From positions 1 through 41,687 of the forward strand of contig NZ_JAGSXH010000051.1 in NCBI RefSeq assembly GCF_018283645.1: a stretch of 41,687 bases of DNA. Reading direction: 5' to 3'. Numbering within the stretch: position 1 is the first letter of the stretch; the number at the start of each line of letters is the position of its first letter. Both the position numbers and the translations under genes were made by a program. Under the pieces are notes generated by a model that was not told where the DNA came from, did not search any database, and was given only the letters and a program-made list of their open reading frames with translations. Positions 506 to 19,782 of this stretch are shown here, in pieces. Source of the DNA: Actinocrinis puniceicyclus (GTDB lineage: Bacteria; Actinomycetota; Actinomycetes; Streptomycetales; Catenulisporaceae).

Positions 506-1510
506 TCAGGCGACCGCAGGCTGCTCGTCGATCCGGTCCACCGCGTCCAGGTCACCAGCTTCACCGCGCTGGTAAGCACGCCTGCCGACGACGAACACGT
601 ACGTCATGAACAGCAGCTCGACCGCGACACCGATACCGATGCGGGTCCACGCCGGCAGCGAGGACGGGGTCACGAACGCCTCGATGACGCCGCTGCACAG
701 CAGCGTCAGCACCATTCCTATACCGACGACCGCAGCCGTCCGCCCCTCGTGTTCGAGCGCTGCCAGCCGCGTGCGCGGACCCGGATCCACCAGCGTCCAG
801 CCCAGCCGCAGACCCACACCCGCCGCCACGAAGAGCGAGGTGAGCTCAAGCAAGCCATGCGGTGTGACCAAGGTGAAGAACACGTCCCCGCGGCCCGCCG
901 CCACCATGTATCCGCCGTCGGTCGCGAGGTTGACCACGTTCTCCCACAGCATGAACAGCACCGGGATGCCGAGCAGGACCCCGGAGAACAGAGTCTCCAG
1001 CGCGAGCCAGAAATTGTTCGTCCACACGTGGGCGGCGAAATCCCGTGCGGGCGCGGAGGTGTAGTAGGTCTCGAAATCGCCGCCCGGCTCGGTGAGCTGC
1101 CGCACCTGCGGAGACGGAACCAGCGCGGAACGCACCTCCGGATGCGCCACCAGCCACCAGCCGACGACGAGCGCGGCGAGCAGCGACAAGACCGCCGTCG
1201 CGCCCCACCACCAGCGGGAACGATAGAGCGCCGCCGGGAGTTTCGCGCCGAAGAAGTCCGCGACGGTGCGCCAGCTGGCCACCCGCGGTGCGGTCAACGC
1301 CGAACGGGACAGCGCCAGCGTCGCGGAGAGCCGGCCGATCAGCTCCGTGTCCGGCAGCGCGCTGCGTACCAGCGAAAGATCGGTCGCCGTGGCCTGATGC
1401 AGCGCGAGCAGCTCGTCGACCTCGGCGACGGTCAGCTTGCGACGGCGAGCCAGCCGGTCCAGCCGGTTCCACTGCGGCGCCCGCCTGATCACGAACGCAT
1501 CGATGTCCAT
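506..1510 (-). CDS. Stage II sporulation protein M (SpoIIM) family membrane protein
   Basis: A 334-residue integral membrane protein of the SpoIIM (DUF95) family. In Firmicutes SpoIIM is part of the engulfment complex; in actinomycetes the family is widespread and its role is not settled. The N-terminal 100 residues are soluble and helical. About five hydrophobic segments follow, beginning with a Trp-rich stretch (RSRWWWGATAVLSLL) and including LFSGVLLGIPVLFMLWENVV and the family-typical TPHGLLELTSLFVAAGVGLRLGW split by a short loop. I chose the ATG at 1510 because homology-like sequence begins there; the open frame continues upstream only as GC-rich shadow. It is divergent from the RDD gene 159 bp away, and this pairing is common in actinobacteria. 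It may act on envelope remodelling; that is inference. Confidence 0.85.
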   Translation of the reverse strand: MDIDAFVIRRAPQWNRLDRLARRRKLTVAEVDELLALHQATATDLSLVRSALPDTELIGRLSATLALSRSALTAPRVASWRTVADFFGAKLPAALYRSRWWWGATAVLSLLAALVVGWWLVAHPEVRSALVPSPQVRQLTEPGGDFETYYTSAPARDFAAHVWTNNFWLALETLFSGVLLGIPVLFMLWENVVNLATDGGYMVAAGRGDVFFTLVTPHGLLELTSLFVAAGVGLRLGWTLVDPGPRTRLAALEHEGRTAAVVGIGMVLTLLCSGVIEAFVTPSSLPAWTRIGIGVAVELLFMTYVFVVGRRAYQRGEAGDLDAVDRIDEQPAVA

Positions 1511-9667: not shown

Positions 9668-11299
9668 TCAGGGCTGCGGGACGGATCCGGACAGGTCGCC
9701 GAGTACGGCCGGGATCTGCACGGTCTCCAGCGCGGTCGCCATCGGCTGGATGGTGAGCATCCCGCCGCCGCTCATCACCCTCGCGGCGTACAGCGAGGCG
9801 GCGCCGGCGAGCGGGGCGACGGAAACCGCGAACGAGGTCGCGCCCTGCGGGGCCTGGAGCGCGACCAGCTTGGTGGACTGCGCCGGGATGGTCACGGTCT
9901 GCGGCGTGGGCGCCCCGGTCGCGCTCTCGATGGTCACCTTGGCCTGCGCGCTCTGGGTGCCGTTGTTGGTCAGCTCGACGCTTGAACCGGGTTTGTCGTC
10001 GGCGACCACGGCTTCGCCGGCCAGCGCGGGGACCGGGCTTAGGTACGCGGTGTCCGTGCCGCCTTCGGCGGTGACCTTGATCGCGGCCAGGATCGGCACG
10101 TTGCCCGCGGTGTCGATCTGCAGCGCGCCGGCCTCGCCGGGACCGGGCACGCTGGAGATGTCGAGTTGCTCGACCTTGCCGGCGGTCAGGTGCGGGGCGG
10201 TGACGGTCGGCACGATCTTCGAGGTGCCGATCCAGTGCAGCGAAGCGTCGGTGTCCGTGGTCGGGGAGAACAGCAGTAGCTGGAGTTTCATCCGCGAGGC
10301 GGGCTTGGCGCTCGGCGCCGGAATGCCGGGCAGCATCAGGTGCGCGGCGGGCTTCTGCGCGAGCAGGAAGTCGCGGCCGCCCATGCCGTCGGAGTCCAGC
10401 AGGGCGGCGCTGACGCGGCCTGCGGTGGCGACGACGTGCAGCGCGATCGGGTCGCCGGTGCTGCTGAAGCCGTTCAGGTCGATCGGGTCGTGCTGGCCGC
10501 CGGGCGGTACCAGCCGGCCCTGACCGAGCTCGGTGGCGCCCAGGCCGGCCTGCCCGGTGGGTGTGTAGGCGGTGAGGTTCACCTGCGCGGCGAGCTGATC
10601 GCTGTCGAACAGGTTGATCAGCGCGTTGGACTTCTCACCCGGGTCGGCGCCCAGGAACCAGAAGTCGGTGTCGGGCGCGGTACAGGGTGTGGAGGCCAGG
10701 CCGTGCGTGCCGGCGGTGGTTCCGCCGGCGAGAGTCTCGGTGACGGTGAAGCCGGGCGCGTATCCGCCGCCGGCCTGCCCGGTGATCGGGATCGACTCCT
10801 GCTGGATGTTGGCGATGTTGCCGCCCAGGCCGGTGTTGACGGACAGCGCGCCGGGCTGCTTGAGCGTGGCGAGCGGTGACTTGCCGCCGAGCGCGGTCAG
10901 GGTCGCCTTGTCTCCGGCCGCCGGGGTGATGCCTCCGGCCGCGCCTGCGGGCGTGATCGCGTTGACAGTCGCGTCATTCGAGCCGATCACGTCGGGGCAC
11001 ACCAGGGTTGCGGTGCGCACCGGGGTGGACTTGGCGGCTACGGCGGTCTGCGGCTTGGAGGCTGCCGGAGCGACGCCGTAGCCGTACGCGACACCGACGC
11101 CGATGGCCGCGAAGACGGCGACCGCGACTTGGATGCGGCGGCCCGCGCCGGCGGTGGCCTGGGCTCCGACCCTGCCTAGGGACGTTCGGCTCAGCGAAGG
11201 CCGGCTCAGGGTGGGCCGGCCCGGTGTGTGCTGGCCGAGTTGCTCGCCGCCGTCGGCCGGCGGTCGTTCCCACGTGTTGGAGTCGTCGGGCGTGCTCAC
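9668..11299 (-). CDS. DUF5719 family membrane-anchored exported protein
   Basis: 543 residues. A cytoplasmic Ser/Arg/Pro-rich N-terminus (about 50 residues, with PTLSRPSLSRTSLGR repeats) is followed by one transmembrane anchor (VAVAVFAAIGVGVAYGYGVA). A long Thr/Ala/Gly-rich extracellular domain of beta-type sequence ends in IPAVLGDLSGSVPQP. Function unknown. DUF5719 proteins accompany the giant GT2 glycosyltransferase in actinobacteria, and here the stop codon of that gene overlaps this start (GTGA at 11299-11296), indicating translational coupling and a shared complex or pathway. An ATG at 11308 is an alternative start, three codons longer. Confidence 0.85.
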   Translation of the reverse strand: MSTPDDSNTWERPPADGGEQLGQHTPGRPTLSRPSLSRTSLGRVGAQATAGAGRRIQVAVAVFAAIGVGVAYGYGVAPAASKPQTAVAAKSTPVRTATLVCPDVIGSNDATVNAITPAGAAGGITPAAGDKATLTALGGKSPLATLKQPGALSVNTGLGGNIANIQQESIPITGQAGGGYAPGFTVTETLAGGTTAGTHGLASTPCTAPDTDFWFLGADPGEKSNALINLFDSDQLAAQVNLTAYTPTGQAGLGATELGQGRLVPPGGQHDPIDLNGFSSTGDPIALHVVATAGRVSAALLDSDGMGGRDFLLAQKPAAHLMLPGIPAPSAKPASRMKLQLLLFSPTTDTDASLHWIGTSKIVPTVTAPHLTAGKVEQLDISSVPGPGEAGALQIDTAGNVPILAAIKVTAEGGTDTAYLSPVPALAGEAVVADDKPGSSVELTNNGTQSAQAKVTIESATGAPTPQTVTIPAQSTKLVALQAPQGATSFAVSVAPLAGAASLYAARVMSGGGMLTIQPMATALETVQIPAVLGDLSGSVPQP

Positions 11300-14200
11300 C
11301 GGGTCCATCCGTCCTGCTCGCCGTGGCCGTAGCCGTCGGAGTCGTACTCGTGCCCGTGCGGCTGCTGCACCGGTTGGTGCAGAGCCTGGTCGTCGGGCTG
11401 ACGTTGTTCAGGCACGCCGTATTCAGGAGCGCCGTACTGGTAGGCAGCAGGATCGGTGTACTGCTCGCCGTACTGGCCATAGGCACCGTTCTCGTACGGG
11501 GCCTGCTCGTACGGGGCCTGCTCGTACTGTGCCTGCTCGTACTGTGCCTGCCCGTACTGGGCCGCCGCGTACGGCTCCTGTACGTGGTGCTCTGCCGGGT
11601 ACTGCTCCTGGGCGTATTGCTGACCGTACTGGGCTTGCGGGTGCTGGCCGCTGTCGTACTCGTCCTGCTCTTGTTGATGTTGACCGTAGGCCGGCGCCGT
11701 CTGCTCGTACCCGCCCGTTTCGTAGTCGTTCTGGTAGGGCGGTTGGCCGTACGAACCCTGCTGCTGATACGTGTACTGCTCCTGATATTGCTCCTGGGCG
11801 TACGGGTCTGCGTTGCCCATCGGGTACTGCTCATACGAGGGGTCGGCAGCGGAGTACTCGCCAGCACCGTAACCGGGAGCCTGGTACGAACCGCTGTGGT
11901 ATTCCTCGGTGCGGTCGCCCTGCTGGTACTCGCCGGTGCGGTATGCCTCGCTCTGGTACTCGTCGGCCGGGTACCCGGCGGCCTGGTACTCGCCACTCGC
12001 GTATTCGTCAGCGCCGTACTGGCCCGCGCGCACCCCGGCGGGCTCGGGTCCGGATTCGGGTGCGAACTCCGGTTCCACCGCGGCGGCCGGGTAAGGCTCG
12101 GGCTCGCGGTACGGCCCGGATTCCCGGTAATGGTCCGCCTGCTGCGCGGAGGGCTCCGGCTCTGGCTCCGGCTCCAGTTCCACCGAGGCGGACGGTCGGG
12201 TCGCCGCGTCGAGCTCGGCGGCCTGCTCGCCCTCGATGTCCTCATCGGGACGGCGCCCGAACGGCAGGGCCATGATGGTCGCCGCGAGCGCCGCGAGGCC
12301 GCCGATGAGCAGCCATACCGTGTGTTTCACAGAGTGGTAGCCGACGGAGACCGTGCCGCCACCGGCGGGCAGTTGCCACGCCTGGAAGCCGTCCACAGGC
12401 GCGAGCGCGGTGAGCTTCTGGTCGCCGATCACCGCGGACCAGCCGGTCAGAGCGTCCTCGGCGAGAACCAGTCGCCGCCCGGACGGGCCCGGCGGAACGG
12501 TCAGGGTGGCGCCGGTGTCCTGGGCACACACCTGGGCGCTGCCCTGAGGCACCGGCGGGATGTTCGAGCATTGATAGGAGACGGGGAGGGCGTTGCCGGC
12601 CTGGTCCTGCACCGTGACCCGGCCGATGTCGCCGTTGACCGACCACAGTCCGTATGCCTTGCCGCCGCCTTGCGACGTCGAGCGCTCGGTGAGCCCGGCG
12701 ACGCCGGTCAGCGCCTGGGAGACGGAGGCGGGGGCCGTCGGGCCGACCATGATGTAGCCCACGTCCATCGCAGCCAACTGCTGCGCCGCGTCGCCGCCGT
12801 TGCCCGAGAGCAACTGGCCGACGACCGCGTCCACCTTCGCGTTCTGGGTCACCGATGTGCGCAGATCGGCGGTACCGAGCGTCGGACCCGCGTCGCGCAC
12901 GATTCCGTAGCCGACGGCGCCTGAAGACCCGCCGGTCAGCATCAGGGTGCGTGGACGCGCGGCGGTCTGCCCCTCCGCCGCGACATACGGCGGGAGGAGT
13001 TCGGCGGAGATCCGGGCTATCGGGCCGGCCGCACCGCGCAGCAGCCACCAGGTGCCGGCCGCGGCAGGGGCGAGCACCGCGGCCGTGGTGATCAGCACGG
13101 TCAGCGGCTGGCGCCAGCCGAACGCGGCGCTCGCGATGCGTTCACGCGCGCCTTCGGCTCCGACGACCGTCGCGGTGATCAGGCCAAGGCCAAGCAGCGC
13201 GGTGGAGACGCCCGGCCAGGGGATGACGCTCTGGCTTGAGCCGGGCGGGGTGACCTTGAGCCCGGCGATGACGACCGCGGAACCGAAGCCGACCAGCGCC
13301 ATGGCCCAGGCGGACACCACGACCCGGCGGCGGGTGCCGCGCAGCAGCGCGGCGAGCGCGGCGAGCAGCAGGCCGAGGCCGATCCAAGCCGGGTAGGTGC
13401 CGGGGCCGCCCGGGTTGCCGAGCAGCAGGCCGAGCGGGGTCGGCGCGGGGCGCTCCAGGTTCACCCCGGCCAGCCCGGGCTCCAGGAAGAACGAGGTCGG
13501 GTGGCGCAGCAGGGACAGCGACCATGGCACGAGCACCACCAGCGGAGTGCCGAGCACCATGCCCATGCGGATGACGGTGACCGCGATGTTGGAGCGAGTA
13601 CGCCACGCGACGGTGATCGTGGCCAGCGCGCCGAAGACCAGCGCGAGAACCCAGGTGACCGGGGCGAACGCGGTCGCGACGGTGAGCAGGAAGGCGCAGG
13701 TCCAGGCCGACCGGGTGGAGCCGGTGCGGCCGGGGCTGCCGACCGCCTGGCTGGCCGTGGTGACCACCAGCGGCAGCACGGCCACCGCGACCGCGGTGCC
13801 CAGCCGTCCGGTGGCGATCGCACCGGTGGCGACGGCGAGCAGAGCGTAGGCGTAGCCGGCCCAGATACGCAGCGGCGCGGACGACGTGATCCGGCGGAAG
13901 GCGTAGGACGCGCTCAGCCCGGCGAGCGGGACGGAGCCGATCAGCAGCACGGACACGGCCCAGGACGCCTTACCCAGCAGCAGCGTCGCCAGGAGCGCCA
14001 GCACCGCGAGATAAGGCGGTGAGTACGCGGTGGTCCCGAGGCCGACGCCGTGCCAGCCCGCCAGGTAAGCGGACCACAGGTCGGCGGAACCGGGCGGGGT
14101 CGGCAGCAGCGCGCCTCCCGCCAGCGCGCCGCCGACGAGGATCGAACGCGCGGCGAGCAGTGCCACCAGGGTCAGCCCGCCGCCGACCGCGATGATCGGG

Positions 14201-15486
14201 TTGCGGATCAGCCGCAGCAGCAGCGCGGTCGAGTCGGTCTCCAGCGCCTCGGACTCCTCGGAGACCGGGCCGGTCTCCACCGAGCGGTGCCGGGAGGATT
14301 CCTGGGCGGAGTCGGCGTGTTCGCCGCGAAGCTGGGTCCACAGGTTGTCCAGCGCGTTGCGGGCCAGCGCGCCGCGCGGCGGGAAGAACTGCTCGATCTG
14401 CTCGCCGCCGACGACGCGCAGCTTGCGGCGGGTGGAGCGGCCGCGCAGGATCCGGTCCGGCCGGGCGGCGAAGGTCAGCAGGGCCACCAGTTCGTCATAG
14501 GCGGTGCCGGGCTGCTTGGCGATCACGAAGCCCAGGGTCCGGAAGAAGGAGCCGAGCATCAGCCTCAGGCACAGGGCGGGCCAGAACCGGCTGTCCTTGT
14601 TCACGGCGACGGTGTAGAGCGCGTGGCTGCGGTCGAGCAGGCGCGGGCGGTTGGGTCCGGCGCCGATCCGCCGGCGCTCGCGGGCCGCGGCCTCGGCGTG
14701 GTGCATGACCGCGTCGGGGGCGACCACGACCTTGTACCCGGCGCTGTTGACCCGCCAGCAGAAGTCCAGGTCGTCACGGAAGATCGAGATGTTGCGGTCG
14801 AAGCCGCGCAGCCGGTCCCACACCTCGCGGCGCACGAGCATGCCGGCGGAGCTCACGCAGAGCACCGGACGGGTCTCGTCGTGCTGGCCCTGGTCGTGCT
14901 CGTTGTGCTCAAGACCCGTCCAGCGCCGGCCGTTGGCGGCGACCGTGGCGCCGACCTCCAGCAGTTGCTTCTTGTCGTACCAGCCGCGGATCTTGGGGCC
15001 GAGCACGGCGGCGTCGGGTTCGTCCTCGGCGGTCAGCAGCAACTGCCCGAGCGCGTCGGGGGCGGGCGCGGAGTCGTCGTGCAGCAGCCAGATCCACTCG
15101 ACCGGGGCGAGGGGGCTGTCGTAGCCGAATTCGTCGTAGGCGACCGGCGGCGAGGATTTCAGGCCGAAGGCGACGGCCGCGCCGTAGCCGGTGGAGCGCT
15201 TGCGGTGCAGGACCTGGTCGGCGCCGAGGGCGGTTTCGAGCAGGTCGACCGAGTTGTCGCGGGATCCGGTGTCGACGGCGATGACGCGCTGGACCGGGCG
15301 GCGCTGGTTCAGCAGCGCGTCGAGCACCGGGCCGAGCCAGCGGCCGCCGTCGTGGCTGACGAGCACGGCGGTGACGACGTGGTGGCGCAGGGCTTCCAGC
15401 GGATTGGAGCCCGCCGCGCGCGGCTCGGCGCCTCGCGGATCGGCTCCGTGCGGCTGCGGGCGCGCGGGTGGTGCGTACTGTGACAT
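11296..15486 (-). CDS. Giant membrane glycosyltransferase (GT2) with low-complexity Tyr/Gln/Glu tail
   Basis: About 1396 residues in four parts. (1) A cytosolic GT2 domain, roughly residues 30-380: VTAVLVSHDGGRWLGPVLDAL, VDTGSRDNSVDLLE, the metal-binding acidic motif LHDDSAPAPDAL, and FRDDLDFCWRVNSAGY. (2) A hydrophobic region of about 12 helices, roughly 440-850. (3) An extracellular domain of about 240 residues closed by a final helix (HTVWLLIGGLAALAATIMAL). (4) A tail of about 320 residues made of Tyr, Gln, Glu, Gly and Pro, including five 15-bp repeat units. It probably transfers a sugar, perhaps to a lipid carrier, and exports or polymerises it. Start uncertain: GTG 15597 lies 9 nt after a TAGGGT box and would give 1433 residues. 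It is coupled to DUF5719 downstream. Confidence 0.88.
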   Translation of the reverse strand: MSQYAPPARPQPHGADPRGAEPRAAGSNPLEALRHHVVTAVLVSHDGGRWLGPVLDALLNQRRPVQRVIAVDTGSRDNSVDLLETALGADQVLHRKRSTGYGAAVAFGLKSSPPVAYDEFGYDSPLAPVEWIWLLHDDSAPAPDALGQLLLTAEDEPDAAVLGPKIRGWYDKKQLLEVGATVAANGRRWTGLEHNEHDQGQHDETRPVLCVSSAGMLVRREVWDRLRGFDRNISIFRDDLDFCWRVNSAGYKVVVAPDAVMHHAEAAARERRRIGAGPNRPRLLDRSHALYTVAVNKDSRFWPALCLRLMLGSFFRTLGFVIAKQPGTAYDELVALLTFAARPDRILRGRSTRRKLRVVGGEQIEQFFPPRGALARNALDNLWTQLRGEHADSAQESSRHRSVETGPVSEESEALETDSTALLLRLIRNPIIAVGGGLTLVALLAARSILVGGALAGGALLPTPPGSADLWSAYLAGWHGVGLGTTAYSPPYLAVLALLATLLLGKASWAVSVLLIGSVPLAGLSASYAFRRITSSAPLRIWAGYAYALLAVATGAIATGRLGTAVAVAVLPLVVTTASQAVGSPGRTGSTRSAWTCAFLLTVATAFAPVTWVLALVFGALATITVAWRTRSNIAVTVIRMGMVLGTPLVVLVPWSLSLLRHPTSFFLEPGLAGVNLERPAPTPLGLLLGNPGGPGTYPAWIGLGLLLAALAALLRGTRRRVVVSAWAMALVGFGSAVVIAGLKVTPPGSSQSVIPWPGVSTALLGLGLITATVVGAEGARERIASAAFGWRQPLTVLITTAAVLAPAAAGTWWLLRGAAGPIARISAELLPPYVAAEGQTAARPRTLMLTGGSSGAVGYGIVRDAGPTLGTADLRTSVTQNAKVDAVVGQLLSGNGGDAAQQLAAMDVGYIMVGPTAPASVSQALTGVAGLTERSTSQGGGKAYGLWSVNGDIGRVTVQDQAGNALPVSYQCSNIPPVPQGSAQVCAQDTGATLTVPPGPSGRRLVLAEDALTGWSAVIGDQKLTALAPVDGFQAWQLPAGGGTVSVGYHSVKHTVWLLIGGLAALAATIMALPFGRRPDEDIEGEQAAELDAATRPSASVELEPEPEPEPSAQQADHYRESGPYREPEPYPAAAVEPEFAPESGPEPAGVRAGQYGADEYASGEYQAAGYPADEYQSEAYRTGEYQQGDRTEEYHSGSYQAPGYGAGEYSAADPSYEQYPMGNADPYAQEQYQEQYTYQQQGSYGQPPYQNDYETGGYEQTAPAYGQHQQEQDEYDSGQHPQAQYGQQYAQEQYPAEHHVQEPYAAAQYGQAQYEQAQYEQAPYEQAPYENGAYGQYGEQYTDPAAYQYGAPEYGVPEQRQPDDQALHQPVQQPHGHEYDSDGYGHGEQDGWTR
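11491..11565 (-). repeat. Five in-frame 15-bp repeats in the glycosyltransferase tail
   Basis: Consecutive 15-nt units at 11491, 11506, 11521, 11536 and 11551 (plus strand pattern CTCGTACNGNGCCTG). They encode pentapeptides of the type QAQYE/QAPYE. The arrays are exactly in frame, so copy-number change would lengthen or shorten the tail without frameshift. Confidence 0.85.
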
Positions 15487-15688
15487 GCGTAACGACGACC
15501 CGGGACTCGACGACAGGGGCTTGCTGCTTCTACTTCGAAGCCGCTTTGCCGCGCCTGCGTCCCGCGGCCTGTACGACGGCGCGCGGGCGTGCGGCACGGT
15601 TGACCCACCCTACGCGACGCGGAAGACAGTCGGGGAGGTTCCCGGGAAGTCGTCCCGCTTTGCCCGGATTCGTACGCCTGGAAAGGGA

Positions 15689-15946
15689 TTACGCGGTCCT
15701 GCGCTTGAGCTTGCGCCGCTCGCGCTCGGACAGGCCGCCCCAGATGCCGAAGCGCTCGTCGTGTGCGAGGGCGTATTCAAGGCAGTCCGCCTTGACTTCG
15801 CAGACCAGGCAGACCCGCTTGGCCTCCCGTGTCGAGCCGCCCTTCTCCGGGAAGAAGGACTCGGGATCGGTCTGCGCGCACAGCGCCCGCTCCTGCCAGG
15901 TCAGCTCCTCGTCGAAGCCGCCGAGCAGCGGGAAGACCTCGGTCAT
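15689..15946 (-). CDS. whiB: WhiB-family transcriptional regulator (WhiB itself)
   Basis: 85 residues. Four Cys at 23, 46, 49 and 55 (C-x22-C-x2-C-x5-C) bind the [4Fe-4S] cluster; the GIWGG turn is at 67-71, and a basic C-terminus (RERRKLKRR) contacts DNA. The segment CAQTDPESFFPEKGGSTREA is nearly identical to Streptomyces WhiB as I recall it. In Streptomyces WhiB works with WhiA to switch on sporulation septation genes. The small size, neighbours (giant GT2, cofD) and sequence all point to WhiB rather than another Wbl paralogue. The ATG at 15946 has GGGAG 8-9 nt upstream. A near-consensus promoter lies at 16115-16144, leaving a leader of about 160 nt. Confidence 0.93.
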   Translation of the reverse strand: MTEVFPLLGGFDEELTWQERALCAQTDPESFFPEKGGSTREAKRVCLVCEVKADCLEYALAHDERFGIWGGLSERERRKLKRRTA

Positions 15947-16114
15947 CGGCACGTCTCCCGTCTCTTGTTCCCGGCACGCTGCGGTTCCCGGCGTGGCGAC
16001 CACTGACACGGCGTGGTCTGATCGGCGCGGCCTGATCGGCGTGGCGGACACCGCCGGTCATGAACCACTGAAGATCGCTGACTTCTCGTCAGGAATCCGG
16101 GCGACCTGCTTGAA

Positions 16115-16144
16115 ATTACACGCGCGTCATTCCCAGCCCGTCAA
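16115..16144 (-). promoter_or_regulatory. whiB promoter
   Basis: Minus strand TTGACG (16144-16139) and TGTAAT (16120-16115) with an 18-nt spacer. It points at whiB. The -35 overlaps an inverted repeat at 16141-16170. Elsewhere in 15947-16436 I see no gene. GACAC pentamers, the WhiA recognition core, occur on the plus strand near 16004 and 16047, within the leader; such a short motif is weak evidence. Confidence 0.6.
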
Positions 16145-16170
16145 GCCGCGATCTGCTAGCGGCGGCTTGA
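16141..16170. promoter_or_regulatory. 9-bp inverted repeat overlapping the whiB -35 element
   Basis: TCAAGCCGC (16141-16149) and GCGGCTTGA (16162-16170) are perfect inverted arms 12 nt apart. The inner end of the left arm shares bases with the -35 hexamer. It could be an operator for a dimeric regulator or, less likely, a transcription terminator stem. Confidence 0.45.
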
Positions 16171-16398
16171 TTCACTCGTAGAGAGCAGCGTTCGACGACC
16201 CCGCCTGTCAGGCCCGTGACGGTCGCGACGTGCGTCCGCGGCGCGCGAGCAAGAGGCGGTGATCCATACTTGCCGCCGCGCGTCCCCACCCTTTAAGGCA
16301 GCCGATATCACACGCGCGAGTGAATACGTCTGATCAGCAGATGAGCAGCCCAAGCCCACCTGGACTAGTGCGAGGCACTAACACGGAGAGTGACGCGA

Positions 16399-16427
16399 CT
16401 GGACGCGGCGCGGTTGTGCGCTAGGCT
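16399..16427 (+). promoter_or_regulatory. Promoter of the poly-cysteine leader ORF
   Basis: TAGGCT (16422-16427) is a -10 box of the type used by several neighbouring genes. CTGGAC (16399-16404), 17 nt upstream, is a plausible -35. The ATG of the leader ORF is 9 nt downstream, so the transcript would start at or a few bases before it. Confidence 0.5.
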
Positions 16428-16436
16428 TTAGGAACT

Positions 16437-16547
16437 ATGTCAGCGCGTACCGATATTCACGCCAAGCGGGCGATTTCGGGCGGATTCTCCGCCGCGTCGC
16501 ACCTTCTCGGTGGCGCGCTCTGTTGTTGTCGCTGTTGCTGTAGCTGA
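16437..16547 (+). CDS. Poly-cysteine leader peptide (36 aa, probable cysteine-responsive attenuator)
   Basis: An ORF of 36 codons from ATG 16437 to TGA 16545-16547. Its C-terminus reads GGALCCCRCCCS-stop: six Cys codons within seven positions (16521-16541), five of them TGT, which is rare in so GC-rich a genome. A 7-bp GC hairpin starts 5 nt after the stop. In mycobacteria, leaderless short ORFs ending in poly-Cys are known to act as cysteine-responsive attenuators, in which ribosome stalling at the Cys codons changes expression of the downstream genes. Position, codon choice, hairpin and a cupin/cysteine-dioxygenase-like gene downstream all fit that model here. The peptide itself probably has no function. 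Confidence 0.75.
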   Translation: MSARTDIHAKRAISGGFSAASHLLGGALCCCRCCCS

Positions 16548-16552
16548 CTTTC

Positions 16553-16572
16553 CGCCCGGTTTGCGCCGGGCG
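16553..16572 (+). terminator. Candidate attenuator hairpin after the poly-Cys ORF
   Basis: CGCCCGG (16553-16559) pairs with CCGGGCG (16566-16572) around a 6-nt loop. It begins 5 nt after the leader stop codon, so a ribosome stalled on the Cys codons or terminating at TGA would cover or free its left arm. There is no T-tract; the mechanism could be Rho- or translation-based rather than intrinsic termination. The 170 nt from here to the next gene contain no other gene. They carry GACAGGAC twice (16655-16662 and 16725-16732), the second near the expected ribosome-binding site. Confidence 0.5.
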
Positions 16573-16741
16573 CCGCATGTCGGCTTTCCGTCGAGCCCCA
16601 TCGTCCGGGCCGGATTCCCGCACCCCGCACGATCGCGGCTCGCTTCCACCCGTTGACAGGACCCGCATCTCGCGGCCGCTATCCCAACGCGTGATCACCG
16701 CGTCCCAGCGATGACGACACCCTGGACAGGACTTACCTCTC

Positions 16742-17332
16742 ATGCCTCCCACGGTCCTTGAGCGGCAGCCGTCACAGACCGCGCCCGCCGCCACACCGCC
16801 CGCGGTGAACACCGCTCCCGTCGTGACCGCCGAGCCAAGCGAGGCGCTGATCCCGCCGGATGTGGCCGCGGTGCTGGGGAACGCGCGAATCCACCCGGAA
16901 TTGCTGCGCCGGGCGTCTCAAAGCCCCGCTACGCCGACGGCCGCGGCGCTGACACAAGCCGCCCTGCGGTTCGCAGCCTGGATCAACGCCGCATCCCTCG
17001 AAGCCGTGATCTCGGACAAGTCGCGGCGCTCTCTGCTGGAGCGCGCGTTCGTGCAGCGTGCCGATCCAGAACGCGCGCACCCCGCCAACGCGAAGCCGGG
17101 TCACTTCAGCCTGCGGGCGATCATCCACGCTGTGGGTAAGGGCGGCGTGCTGCACCTGGAAGCGTCGGACACGCCGCGCGCAGTCAGCGTGGTGCACGGC
17201 TCGCTTGAGCAACGTTGCACGACCCGCGCAGCGTTGCAGCCGGGCGCGGTACGGCTCTTGCCCGCGGGTCATGTCCTGACGCTTGCCGATCTCGCGGGCG
17301 AGGGCGCGATCGCCGTCGAGGTGCGGGGTTAG
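16742..17332 (+). CDS. Cupin-like protein, possibly degenerate cysteine dioxygenase relative
   Basis: 196 residues. The first 40 are Pro/Ala/Thr-rich and probably disordered; a helical part follows (ALTQAALRFAAWINAASLEAVI). The last 90 residues look like beta strands of a small cupin: FSLRAIIHAVGKGGVLHLE, VVHGSLEQR, and LQPGAVRLLPAGHVLTLAD. The last two resemble the closing strands of bacterial cysteine dioxygenase, but I find neither the HxH pair nor the second His after GHV, so the iron site appears to be lost. Catalysis is doubtful; a ligand-sensing or structural role is possible. It sits downstream of the poly-Cys leader and 42 bp upstream of cofD. The assignment is an inference and a specific family is not claimed. 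Confidence 0.5.
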   Translation: MPPTVLERQPSQTAPAATPPAVNTAPVVTAEPSEALIPPDVAAVLGNARIHPELLRRASQSPATPTAAALTQAALRFAAWINAASLEAVISDKSRRSLLERAFVQRADPERAHPANAKPGHFSLRAIIHAVGKGGVLHLEASDTPRAVSVVHGSLEQRCTTRAALQPGAVRLLPAGHVLTLADLAGEGAIAVEVRG

Positions 17333-17361
17333 CGGCCACGCTGCGAGACCACGGCGCCAGA

Positions 17362-17367
17362 TAGGCT
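17362..17367 (+). promoter_or_regulatory. -10 box giving a leaderless cofD transcript
   Basis: TAGGCT, then 7 nt, then the GTG start at 17375. No Shine-Dalgarno sequence. The arrangement is identical to that at 24063. Confidence 0.55.
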
Positions 17368-17374
17368 CGTCATC

Positions 17375-18349
17375 GTGACTAGCACAGCTATGAGGATCAC
17401 GGCCGTGGCCGGCGGGGTCGGCGGCTCCCGGTTCCTGCGCGGGCTGCTCGCCGCGGCGCCACGGGCGCAGGTCACCGTCATCGGTAACGTCGGAGACGAC
17501 ATCACGCTGCACGGGCTGCGCGTATGCCCGGACCTTGACACGGTGATGTACGCGCTGGGCGGCGGGATCCATGAGGGTCAGGGCTGGGGGCGCGCGGACG
17601 AGACCTTCGCGGTCGCCGCGGAACTGGCCGAGTACGGCGTCGGGCCCGACTGGTTCACGCTCGGAGACCGCGACATCGCAACGCATCTGGTGCGCACTCA
17701 GATGCTCGACGCCGGCTACCCGCTCTCCGCGGTGACGGAAGCGCTGTGCGCGCGCTGGAAGCCCGGGGTGCGGCTGCTCCCGGCCACGGACGACCGCGCC
17801 GAGACGCACGTAATACTTGCCGATGACGACGGTAAGCGGCGTGCCGTGCACTTCCAGGAGTACTGGGTACGGCTGCACGCGCCGCAAGCCGAGTCGATCG
17901 TGTTCGTGGGAGCGGAGAAGGCGCAACCGGCACCCGGTGTGCTCGATGCGATCGCTGAAGCGGACGTGGTGCTGTTCCCGCCGTCGAACCCGGTGGTGTC
18001 GATCGGCGCGGTGCTGGCCGTGCCGGGCATCCGCGAGGCGTTGGAGTCCAGCGCGGCCCCGGTCGTGGGCCTGTCCCCGATCATCGGTTCCGCCCCGGTG
18101 CGCGGAATGGCGGACAAGGTGCTGGCCGCGGTGGGCGTGTCGGAAACGAGCGCCGCGGCCGTCGCCGAGTACTACGGCCCCTCGCTGCTTGACGGCTGGT
18201 TGGTCGATGAGGCCGACGCGCAGCAGGCGGCGCGGGTCGAGGCGGCCGGGATCCGCTGCCGCGCGGTGCCGCTGCTGATGCGGGATGCGGACGCGACGGC
18301 GGCGATGGCGCGGGCCGCGCTCGATCTGGCCGCGGAGCTGAAGCGATGA
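17375..18349 (+). CDS. cofD: CofD/FbiA: 2-phospho-L-lactate (or phosphoenolpyruvate-derived) transferase of F420 synthesis
   Basis: 324 residues. The enzyme joins the activated phospho-C3 acid from the guanylyl intermediate to the deazaflavin Fo, making (dehydro-)F420-0; in actinobacteria the phosphoenolpyruvate-derived route gives dehydro-F420-0, which FbiB later reduces. Visible motifs are the N-terminal [15 protein letters not shown] nucleotide loop, [25 protein letters not shown], and [22 protein letters not shown] 17375 is placed by a TAGGCT box 7 nt upstream and fits a leaderless mRNA; ATG 17390 is a fallback. The stop overlaps the next start (ATGA), so cofD and fbiB are co-translated. 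Confidence 0.95.
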
Positions 18350-19782
18350 GCACCACGGACATGACGCGGCATCAGCCGCCTCGTCGCTACGCGGTTTTCG
18401 GGTTGTACGGCCTGCCGGAGGTCGAGCCGGGCGCGGATCTCGCCGGGCTCATCGCGGCGGCCAGTACAGCGGACACCACGGGATCGGGCGCCACAGTATC
18501 GGCTGCCGCGGGATCGGGCGTCACGGAATCGGGCGTCACGGGATCAAGCACAAGTACCGCCGAGCCGGGTAGCACCGCGTTGCAGGACGGCGACATCCTG
18601 GTCGTGACGTCGAAGGCGGTCTCGAAGGCGGAGGGGCGCATCGTCGCGGCCGCCGACCGCGAGGCGGCGATCGACGCGGAAACGGTGCGTCTCGTGGCGC
18701 GGCGCGGTCCACTGCGGATCGTGGAGAACCGGCAGGGCCTGGTGATGGCGGCGGCCGGCGTCGACGCGTCGAACACGCCGAAAGGCACCGCGCTGCTACT
18801 GCCCGAGGACCCGGACCGGTCCGCGCGTGAGATCGCCGAAGGTGTGCGTACCCGACTGGGGGTGTCCGTAGCCGTCATCATCTCGGATACGTTCGGACGT
18901 GTCTGGCGCGCCGGCCTGGTGGATCAGGCCATCGGTGCGGCCTACCTCGCCACCGTGGACGATCTGCGGGGACATCAGGACACCCACGGCAACCCGTTGG
19001 CGGTGACCGTGACCGCCCTCGCCGACGAGTTGGCCGCCGCCGCAGAACTGGTCAAGGGCAAGCTCGCCGGGGTACCGGTGGCGGTGGTGCGCGGTCTGGG
19101 GCATCTGGTCGCCGACGAGCCGGGGCCCGGGGCGCGGGTGCTGCTGCGTCCGGCGCAGGAGGACCTGTTCTCACTCGGTACTGCCGAGGCGCGGGCGTCC
19201 GCGATCACGAACCGCCGCACGATCCGGGCCTTCACCGACGCCTATGTGCCGCCGGACGCTGTCCGGCGGGCGGTCGCAGCGGCGATCACCGCGCCGGCTC
19301 CGCATCACACGACGCCGTGGCGCTTCGTGGAGGTGCGCTCGGAGGGCGCTCGCAAGGCGCTGCTCGACGCGATGCTCGCGGCCTGGATCGAGGACCTGCG
19401 CGGCGACAGGTTCAGTGAGCAGTCGATCGCGCGCCGAGTACGTCGCGGTGACGTGCTGAGAGGCGCGCCCGTCCTCGTCGTGCCGTGCCTGGTGATGGAG
19501 GGCTCTCATACGTATCCCGACACGCGGCGACGCACGGCCGAACGGGAGATGTTCCTTGTCGCGGCGGGCGCGGGAGTGGAGAACCTGCTGATCGCTCTGG
19601 CTGCGGAGGGCCTGGGCTCGGCCTGGGTGTCCTCGACGATGTTCTGCCGCGACGTGGTGCGCTCGGTGCTGGACCTGCCGGGCCACTGGGACCCGGTGGG
19701 TGCCGTCGCGGTCGGCCACCCCGCGCAGCCGCCACGCGACAGGCCGCCACGCTCGCCGGAGGACTTCCTGATCGTCAGATGA
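18346..19782 (+). CDS. fbiB: FbiB: bifunctional F420-0:gamma-glutamyl ligase / nitroreductase-fold reductase
   Basis: 478 residues. The N-terminal CofE domain (to about 265) adds gamma-linked glutamates to F420-0 using [42 protein letters not shown]. The C-terminal flavin nitroreductase-like domain (about 280-478: [32 protein letters not shown]) reduces the dehydro intermediate and supports chain extension. Odd: residues about 40-75, between LAGLIAA and LQDGDILVV, are a Ser/Thr/Gly-rich insert coded partly by 15-bp tandem repeats (18481-18555). That region is a short loop in most homologues, and the catalytic motifs on either side are intact. The start overlaps the cofD stop by 4 nt. Confidence 0.94.
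18481..18555 (+). repeat. 15-bp tandem repeats inside fbiB
   Basis: Five 15-nt units beginning at 18481, 18496, 18511, 18526 and 18541. Units 1, 3 and 4 are nearly identical (GGATCGGGCGTCACG type). They code [25 protein letters not shown], keep the reading frame and create the insert in the CofE domain. Confidence 0.8.

Follow-up and report, generated by a model that had tools for sequence, protein, structure and literature searches.

The window, that is, the whole 41,687-nucleotide stretch of Actinocrinis puniceicyclus DNA that was analyzed, contains a short open reading frame (ORF) ending in a run of Cys codons, located between a divergent WhiB-family gene and an operon carrying the coenzyme F420 biosynthesis genes fbiA and fbiB. 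The genome falls within the same order as Streptomyces, and its nearest genera in the genome collection are Actinospica and Catenulispora; the latter genus name was assigned to one group of relatives by inference, with kinship among the grounds. The features of the locus are as follows.

15689–15946, minus strand: divergent WhiB-family gene (PF02467, 6.7e-26), with an inferred start at 15946 and an open frame to 16051
16422–16427, plus strand: -10-type hexamer TAGGCT, ending 9 nt before the leader ATG
16437–16547, plus strand: leader ORF of 36 codons, MSARTDIHAKRAISGGFSAASHLLGGALCCCRCCCS followed by the stop, with positional counterparts in relatives
16521–16541, plus strand: proposed sensor, a CCCRCCC run with Cys encoded five times by TGT and once by TGC
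16553–16559 and 16566–16572, plus strand: arms of a 7-bp GC hairpin, CGCCCGG/CCGGGCG, starting 5 nt after the leader stop and devoid of a U tract
16706–16718, plus strand: CAGCGATGACGAC, 13 bp complementary to the Cys codons (3 G-U), upstream of the likely Shine-Dalgarno sequence of the next gene
16742–17332, plus strand: 196-aa protein, a probable decayed cysteine dioxygenase (CDO) relic without the HxH metal site, related to small Actinospica proteins at this place
17375–18349, plus strand: fbiA/cofD, 2-phospho-L-lactate transferase of F420 biosynthesis (TIGR01819, 1.3e-118)
18346–19782, plus strand: fbiB, F420-0:L-glutamate ligase of F420 biosynthesis (NF009810, 2.9e-190)

On the minus strand, 11296–15597 additionally encodes a very large protein resembling glycosyltransferases; its longest frame gives 1433 aa, and its C-terminal tail is long, repetitive and rich in Tyr, Gln and Glu.

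The original prediction placed the leader ATG at 16437 and gave the ORF a length of 36 codons, and both were confirmed on the sequence, with the TGA stop at 16545–16547. Codons 29–35 read TGT TGT TGT CGC TGT TGC TGT, which upholds the claim of six Cys codons in seven positions, five of them TGT; the single Ser codon (AGC) that separates this run from the TGA had been omitted. The TAGGCT hexamer 9 nt upstream of the ATG and the 194-nt untranslated stretch from the leader stop to the ATG at 16742 were likewise found where predicted. The description of TGT as a rare codon also agrees with the genes of the window, in which TGT makes up 10 of the 82 Cys codons, compared to 5 of 6 in the leader (P = 1.5e-4 for at least 5 of 6). 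At least six Cys among the last eight codons were found in only 1 of 916 short start-to-stop frames of the window, and no ORF with a comparable Cys end was obtained in 40 Markov-shuffled windows. Such single-site statistics are far weaker evidence than the conservation of the leader in relatives.

A comparison with related actinomycetes had been proposed together with the leader, with lack of conservation as a ground for rejecting it, and the ORF frame and the Cys run proved to be conserved. A leaderless-type ORF with a Cys run was found between the divergent whiB gene and fbiA at 76 of 78 named Streptomyces-group loci, and a Cys-run leader is present at the fbiA locus in all 10 Catenulispora and all 3 Actinospica loci. 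The 76 Streptomyces-group loci share the order TTGACA, 36–37 nt, ATG, Cys run, stop and CDO. In a first set of Streptomyces-group loci, a Cys-ended short ORF was observed upstream of fbiA in 16 of 16. One of the two misses in the named set, S. albidoflavus, has kept the promoter and the start while its Cys tail is scattered, and the leader was not found at the locus in a further Streptomyces-group genome (L160).

Outside the Streptomycetales, no leader was detected near fbiA at any of 39 loci from 25 families, and at many fbiA loci of other orders whiB directly adjoins fbiA. A genome from a third family of the order (G015) is without a leader at fbiA, but a Cys leader precedes CDO elsewhere in this genome. 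There, the CDO lies away from fbiA and has its own leader, MYQRADRLHHVKLRRVASALCCCLCCRPSL (L067, ~ 1192–1284, minus strand). Since the leader accompanies CDO within the Streptomycetales and is absent near fbiA elsewhere, it goes with the insertion of CDO in this order.

The spacing between the promoter and the leader ATG is of the leaderless type and is constant, with TTGACA 36–39 nt upstream in Catenulispora and Streptomyces (39 nt in the former and 36–37 nt in the latter). The -10 hexamer of the Streptomyces leaders ends 7 nt before the ATG, and the -10-type hexamers of Actinospica (TAGTCT, TAGCCT and TACCCT) stand at the same distance from the leader ATG as TAGGCT in the window. Judged by this spacing, the leader transcript of the window is expected to start 0–3 nt before the ATG and would be leaderless or nearly so. 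The presence of the leader and its promoter before the CDO/F420 operon in nearly every Streptomyces relative makes a cysteine-sensing switch of the mycobacterial type very likely. Between whiB and the leader, the DNA at 16110–16180 (AAATTACACGCGCGTCA...CCGTCAAGCC) is similar in Catenulispora and Streptomyces, and chance frames in this stretch translate as KLHARH..VKP. The similarity suggests that a regulatory or 5' region belonging to divergent whiB is conserved here.

Codon usage in the leaders is strongly skewed. In a first set of leaders, TGT accounts for 176 of the 209 Cys codons, and the named set has 308 of 388, compared to the 10 of 82 in the window genes; the share is 61 of 62 across the 14 genomes of the family set (the window genome, 3 Actinospica and 10 Catenulispora), all 14 of which have retained the Cys run. 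The run is always at the 3' end of the leader and comprises 3–7 Cys per leader in the named set. The peptide preceding it drifts, with pN/pS values of 0.83 in Catenulispora and 0.90 in Streptomyces, compared to 0.22 for fbiA. Synonymous changes were absent from the last 12 codons of the 10 Catenulispora leaders. A drifting peptide combined with fixed, TGT-rich 3' codons is the mark of a sensor, in which the codons matter and the peptide does not.

These data also bear on whether the ORF instead encodes a functional Cys-rich small peptide, for example one binding metal or thiol, and no sensor at all. Conservation of the frame and of the Cys-rich end would suit a peptide function. However, the number, spacing and context of the Cys residues vary among leaders (CCCRCCC, CRCRC, CCRRC and CSCCCC), outside the run the peptide evolves in a nearly neutral way, and neither a TGT preference at the DNA level nor the absence of synonymous change is expected for a peptide; a functional peptide is thus very improbable. 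Slower wobble decoding of TGT by Cys-tRNA is one candidate reason for the TGT preference in the leaders, and base pairing may be the other.

The gene that follows the leader differs between the lineages. In Streptomyces it encodes a true cysteine dioxygenase (PF05995, 2e-19) with HDH, which places the leader in front of cysteine metabolism, whereas in the window the leader precedes a CDO relic and fbiA-fbiB. The original prediction held that the end of the downstream gene resembles CDO. This was borne out weakly by pairwise alignment, in which residues 119–196 of the 196-aa protein scored above 500 of 500 shuffles against the cupin half of the Streptomyces CDO. On the other hand, no Pfam or NCBIfam family, PF05995 included, matched the protein, the HxH metal site is lost, and profile-profile comparison with CDO gave E = 0.72, leaving homology unconfirmed. 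The further description of the gene as cupin-like did not survive, the product being no working cupin or CDO but at most a dead CDO relic without HxH. Its AlphaFold model has a low confidence (pLDDT 62.5), and a Foldseek search with this model returned no significant match, with thiol dioxygenases and cupins among the matches. The protein is 35–39% identical to its Actinospica counterparts and aligns weakly with the small Catenulispora proteins (hhalign E 0.0011); no close relatives were found in the genome contig collection. Judged from these alignments, the product of 16742–17332 is a probable decayed CDO.

In Catenulispora (L004–L015), the gene immediately preceding fbiA encodes a conserved protein of 70–90 aa without a known family (APDLVALFLGATPHPDIVIPEPxVTIADLAAAARA...LRWDAARQRFAS). 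It usually ends 13 nt before fbiA, is under purifying selection (pN/pS 0.39) and is possibly the remaining N-terminal part of CDO. In the family of the window, CDO has thus decayed or given way to a small protein, yet fbiA-fbiB are still preceded by the leader, with both its frame and its TGT codons retained. This persistence after the loss of CDO points to one of two situations: the target has shifted to fbiA-fbiB or the small protein, or the leader is a relic that is dying slowly.

Under the latter explanation, CDO decayed in the lineage of the window and the attenuator is still awaiting loss, in keeping with the missing metal site of the downstream protein and with the failure of a Streptomyces CDO query to find any CDO in the genome of the window. 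A relic would hardly be expected to keep its Cys run in 14 of 14 family genomes, 61 of the 62 Cys codons being TGT, nor to show no synonymous change in the last 12 leader codons of Catenulispora, where the small downstream gene is itself under purifying selection. A relic leader is accordingly regarded as unlikely. Cysteine control does not appear to extend to F420 genes in general, as no convincing Cys leader was found before the F420 gene fbiC in 16 genomes.

Complementarity between the Cys codons and the region around the downstream start was examined in Streptomyces and in the window. In the Streptomyces group, the Cys codons (e.g. CGCUGUUGCUGUUC) are complementary to the CDO start region (UGAACAGCGACAGCG), and contiguous helices of 9–16 bp are possible in 75 of 84 distinct cases. 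When 80 windows of the CDO mRNA were compared over 102 Streptomyces-group loci, the start-codon window gave the strongest mean pairing with the Cys run (-21.8 kcal/mol compared to a mean of -12.1 kcal/mol) and ranked in the top 5% in 77% of loci; the loci in these pairing tests are related and hence not independent. Codon 3 of CDO is AGC in 80 of 84 cases, while AGC makes up ~ 30% of the Ser codons in these gene bodies. Synonymous recoding of the run weakened the pairing on average (-21.6 vs -25.7 kcal/mol), with p < 0.05 in only 7 of 26 loci. A permutation test for coevolution of the Cys run with the CDO start gave p = 0.45, both sides being nearly fixed.

In the window, the Cys run is predicted from the single sequence to pair with 16706–16718 with a probability of 0.996. 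A modelled ribosome on the Cys run left access to the start codon at 16742 unchanged (0.59 to 0.58). For Streptomyces, the start region modelled over a narrow start-codon window had an openness of 0.24 in the ribosome-free leader, rising to 0.54 when a ribosome was stalled mid-run and to 0.34 when it stood at the stop. The ribosome effect was small in Streptomyces and Catenulispora when a wide window (-18 to +9) was used, and in the single window sequence a ribosome at the stop was the only one to open this wide region (0.40 to 0.60). Catenulispora shows a different, invariant predicted pairing, between GGUCUGU in the leader and ACAGACC after the leader stop. The structural part of the switch may, on these models, differ between lineages.

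The GC hairpin of the original prediction was confirmed in sequence and position and is predicted to form in the window (16553–16572, 0.98–1.0). It has a counterpart only in Actinospica, where a similar CCCGUCC...GGACGGG hairpin follows the leader stop, and none in Catenulispora or Streptomyces. For Streptomyces, the idea of a hairpin conserved at the leader stop was considered separately and rejected (shuffle z about +0.2). An Rfam search of 16000–17400 gave no credible match.

The conserved ORF, its frame, Cys run and TGT codons, the promoter spacing, the place in the operon and the complementarity are all read directly from the sequences. From them we infer the transcription start, ribosome stalling, a response to cysteine, the sign of that response and its reach to fbiA-fbiB. 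Taken together, the leader is probably a cysteine-responsive attenuator, acting mainly at the level of translation, for the operon formed by the CDO relic (16742–17332), fbiA and fbiB. Transcription would start at or beside the leader ATG, and a ribosome loading on the leaderless mRNA would soon reach the Cys run. With ample cysteine it would proceed to the UGA and leave, and the Cys codons, then free of ribosome, could base-pair around the start of the following gene. In Streptomyces this would hide the CDO start codon, and in the window the partner would be 16706–16718, just upstream of the likely Shine-Dalgarno sequence. With Cys-tRNA in short supply, the ribosome would pause on the Cys run and break this pairing, allowing more downstream translation. 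Expression under the translation model would rise when Cys-tRNA is short, which suits biosynthetic operons but is odd for the catabolic CDO.

The opposite sign, physiologically sensible for CDO, is possible if the same sensor acts on transcription, with the position of the ribosome on the Cys run deciding Rho termination in the C-rich region after the leader. Rho was proposed for actinobacterial Cys leaders by Seliverstov 2005 (PMC1262725). The Streptomyces spacers are indeed C-rich (C 0.43–0.58, G 0.19–0.30; 0.43 and 0.27 in the window), and the stretch from leader to gene carries no intrinsic terminator (a hairpin followed by a U tract) in the window, Catenulispora or Actinospica, and carries one in only 9 of 76 Streptomyces loci. 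C-richness is nevertheless common in these genomes, the Catenulispora spacers measure just 63–84 nt, and termination by Rho leaves the complementarity to the start codon unexplained; we consider this transcriptional version rather unlikely.

Translation-level attenuation can be taken one step further. The Cys codons would then be both the sensor and an antisense lock on the start codon, and in the family of the window the switch would have outlived CDO and would now place fbiA-fbiB and the new small protein under cysteine control. This extension is tentative and somewhat doubtful, yet it would account for the strong TGT preference because the Cys run would itself be the antisense of the downstream start codon, a simple reason for the leader Cys codons being mostly the rare TGT. 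If the overall interpretation is correct, leaderless poly-Cys attenuation is a constant feature throughout the Streptomyces group of antibiotic producers, where it acts on a cysteine-degrading enzyme, possibly also on coenzyme F420 supply. It also raises a puzzle, namely a starvation-type sensor located before a catabolic gene and retained after that gene has decayed.

Poly-Cys leaderless ORFs were first seen in mycobacteria by Shell 2015 (PMC4633059) and are cysteine attenuators in M. smegmatis according to Canestrari 2020, as cited in PMC9031893, PMC9094748 and PMC13236596. Like the leader in the window, the mycobacterial ORFs (Ms5788A and others; NF042933) are short, carry contiguous Cys codons near the stop and occupy the 5' end of an operon; judged by its promoter spacing, the window leader would probably be leaderless as well. 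Their targets are genes of sulfur assimilation and cysteine supply (cysA2, nirA), in contrast to CDO or its relic and the F420 genes here, and the present leader gave no match to NF042933 (leader_Ms5788A) or NF042934 (cis_reg_atten) at E values up to 10. NF042934 describes a 'putative leader peptide' of the R-R-x-H-x-D-L-x-R type; a Cys-ending leader of this family, located before a CDO paralogue elsewhere in Streptomyces genomes, differs from the present leader in both peptide and locus. A second, distant CDO paralogue preceded by a Cys-ending leader of the type RLWRRVHMDLVRYAGCVCRPSC was observed in Streptomyces (L078–L081) and Actinospica (L075/L076); the L081 leader matches NF042934 and the Actinospica leader (RLVRRTHLDTVRYVGCLCC) does not.

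The occurrence of a Cys leader outside the mycobacteria, which the original prediction stressed, is not novel in itself, as candidate Cys leader peptides of cys/cbs operons had been predicted in 2005 for P. acnes and B. longum as well as Mycobacterium (Seliverstov 2005, PMC1262725). Those leaders resemble the present one in being actinobacterial, in having Cys runs close to the end of a short ORF upstream and in lacking a conserved terminator; they precede other operons, and CDO and fbiA are absent from the text of that paper. Searches of one literature library returned no paper linking a Cys leader to CDO-fbiA, which is no proof of absence. The LEU element found before leuA in Actinobacteria (PMC1262725) is a precedent for sensor codons pairing with a translation start, as its regulatory codons themselves bind the Shine-Dalgarno region of the target. 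It employs Leu codons and a pseudoknot, whereas here Cys codons are involved, and they face the start codon of CDO in Streptomyces and, in the window, a site that lies before the start. The kind of attenuator is therefore already known, while its target, architecture and evolution look new for a poly-Cys leader.
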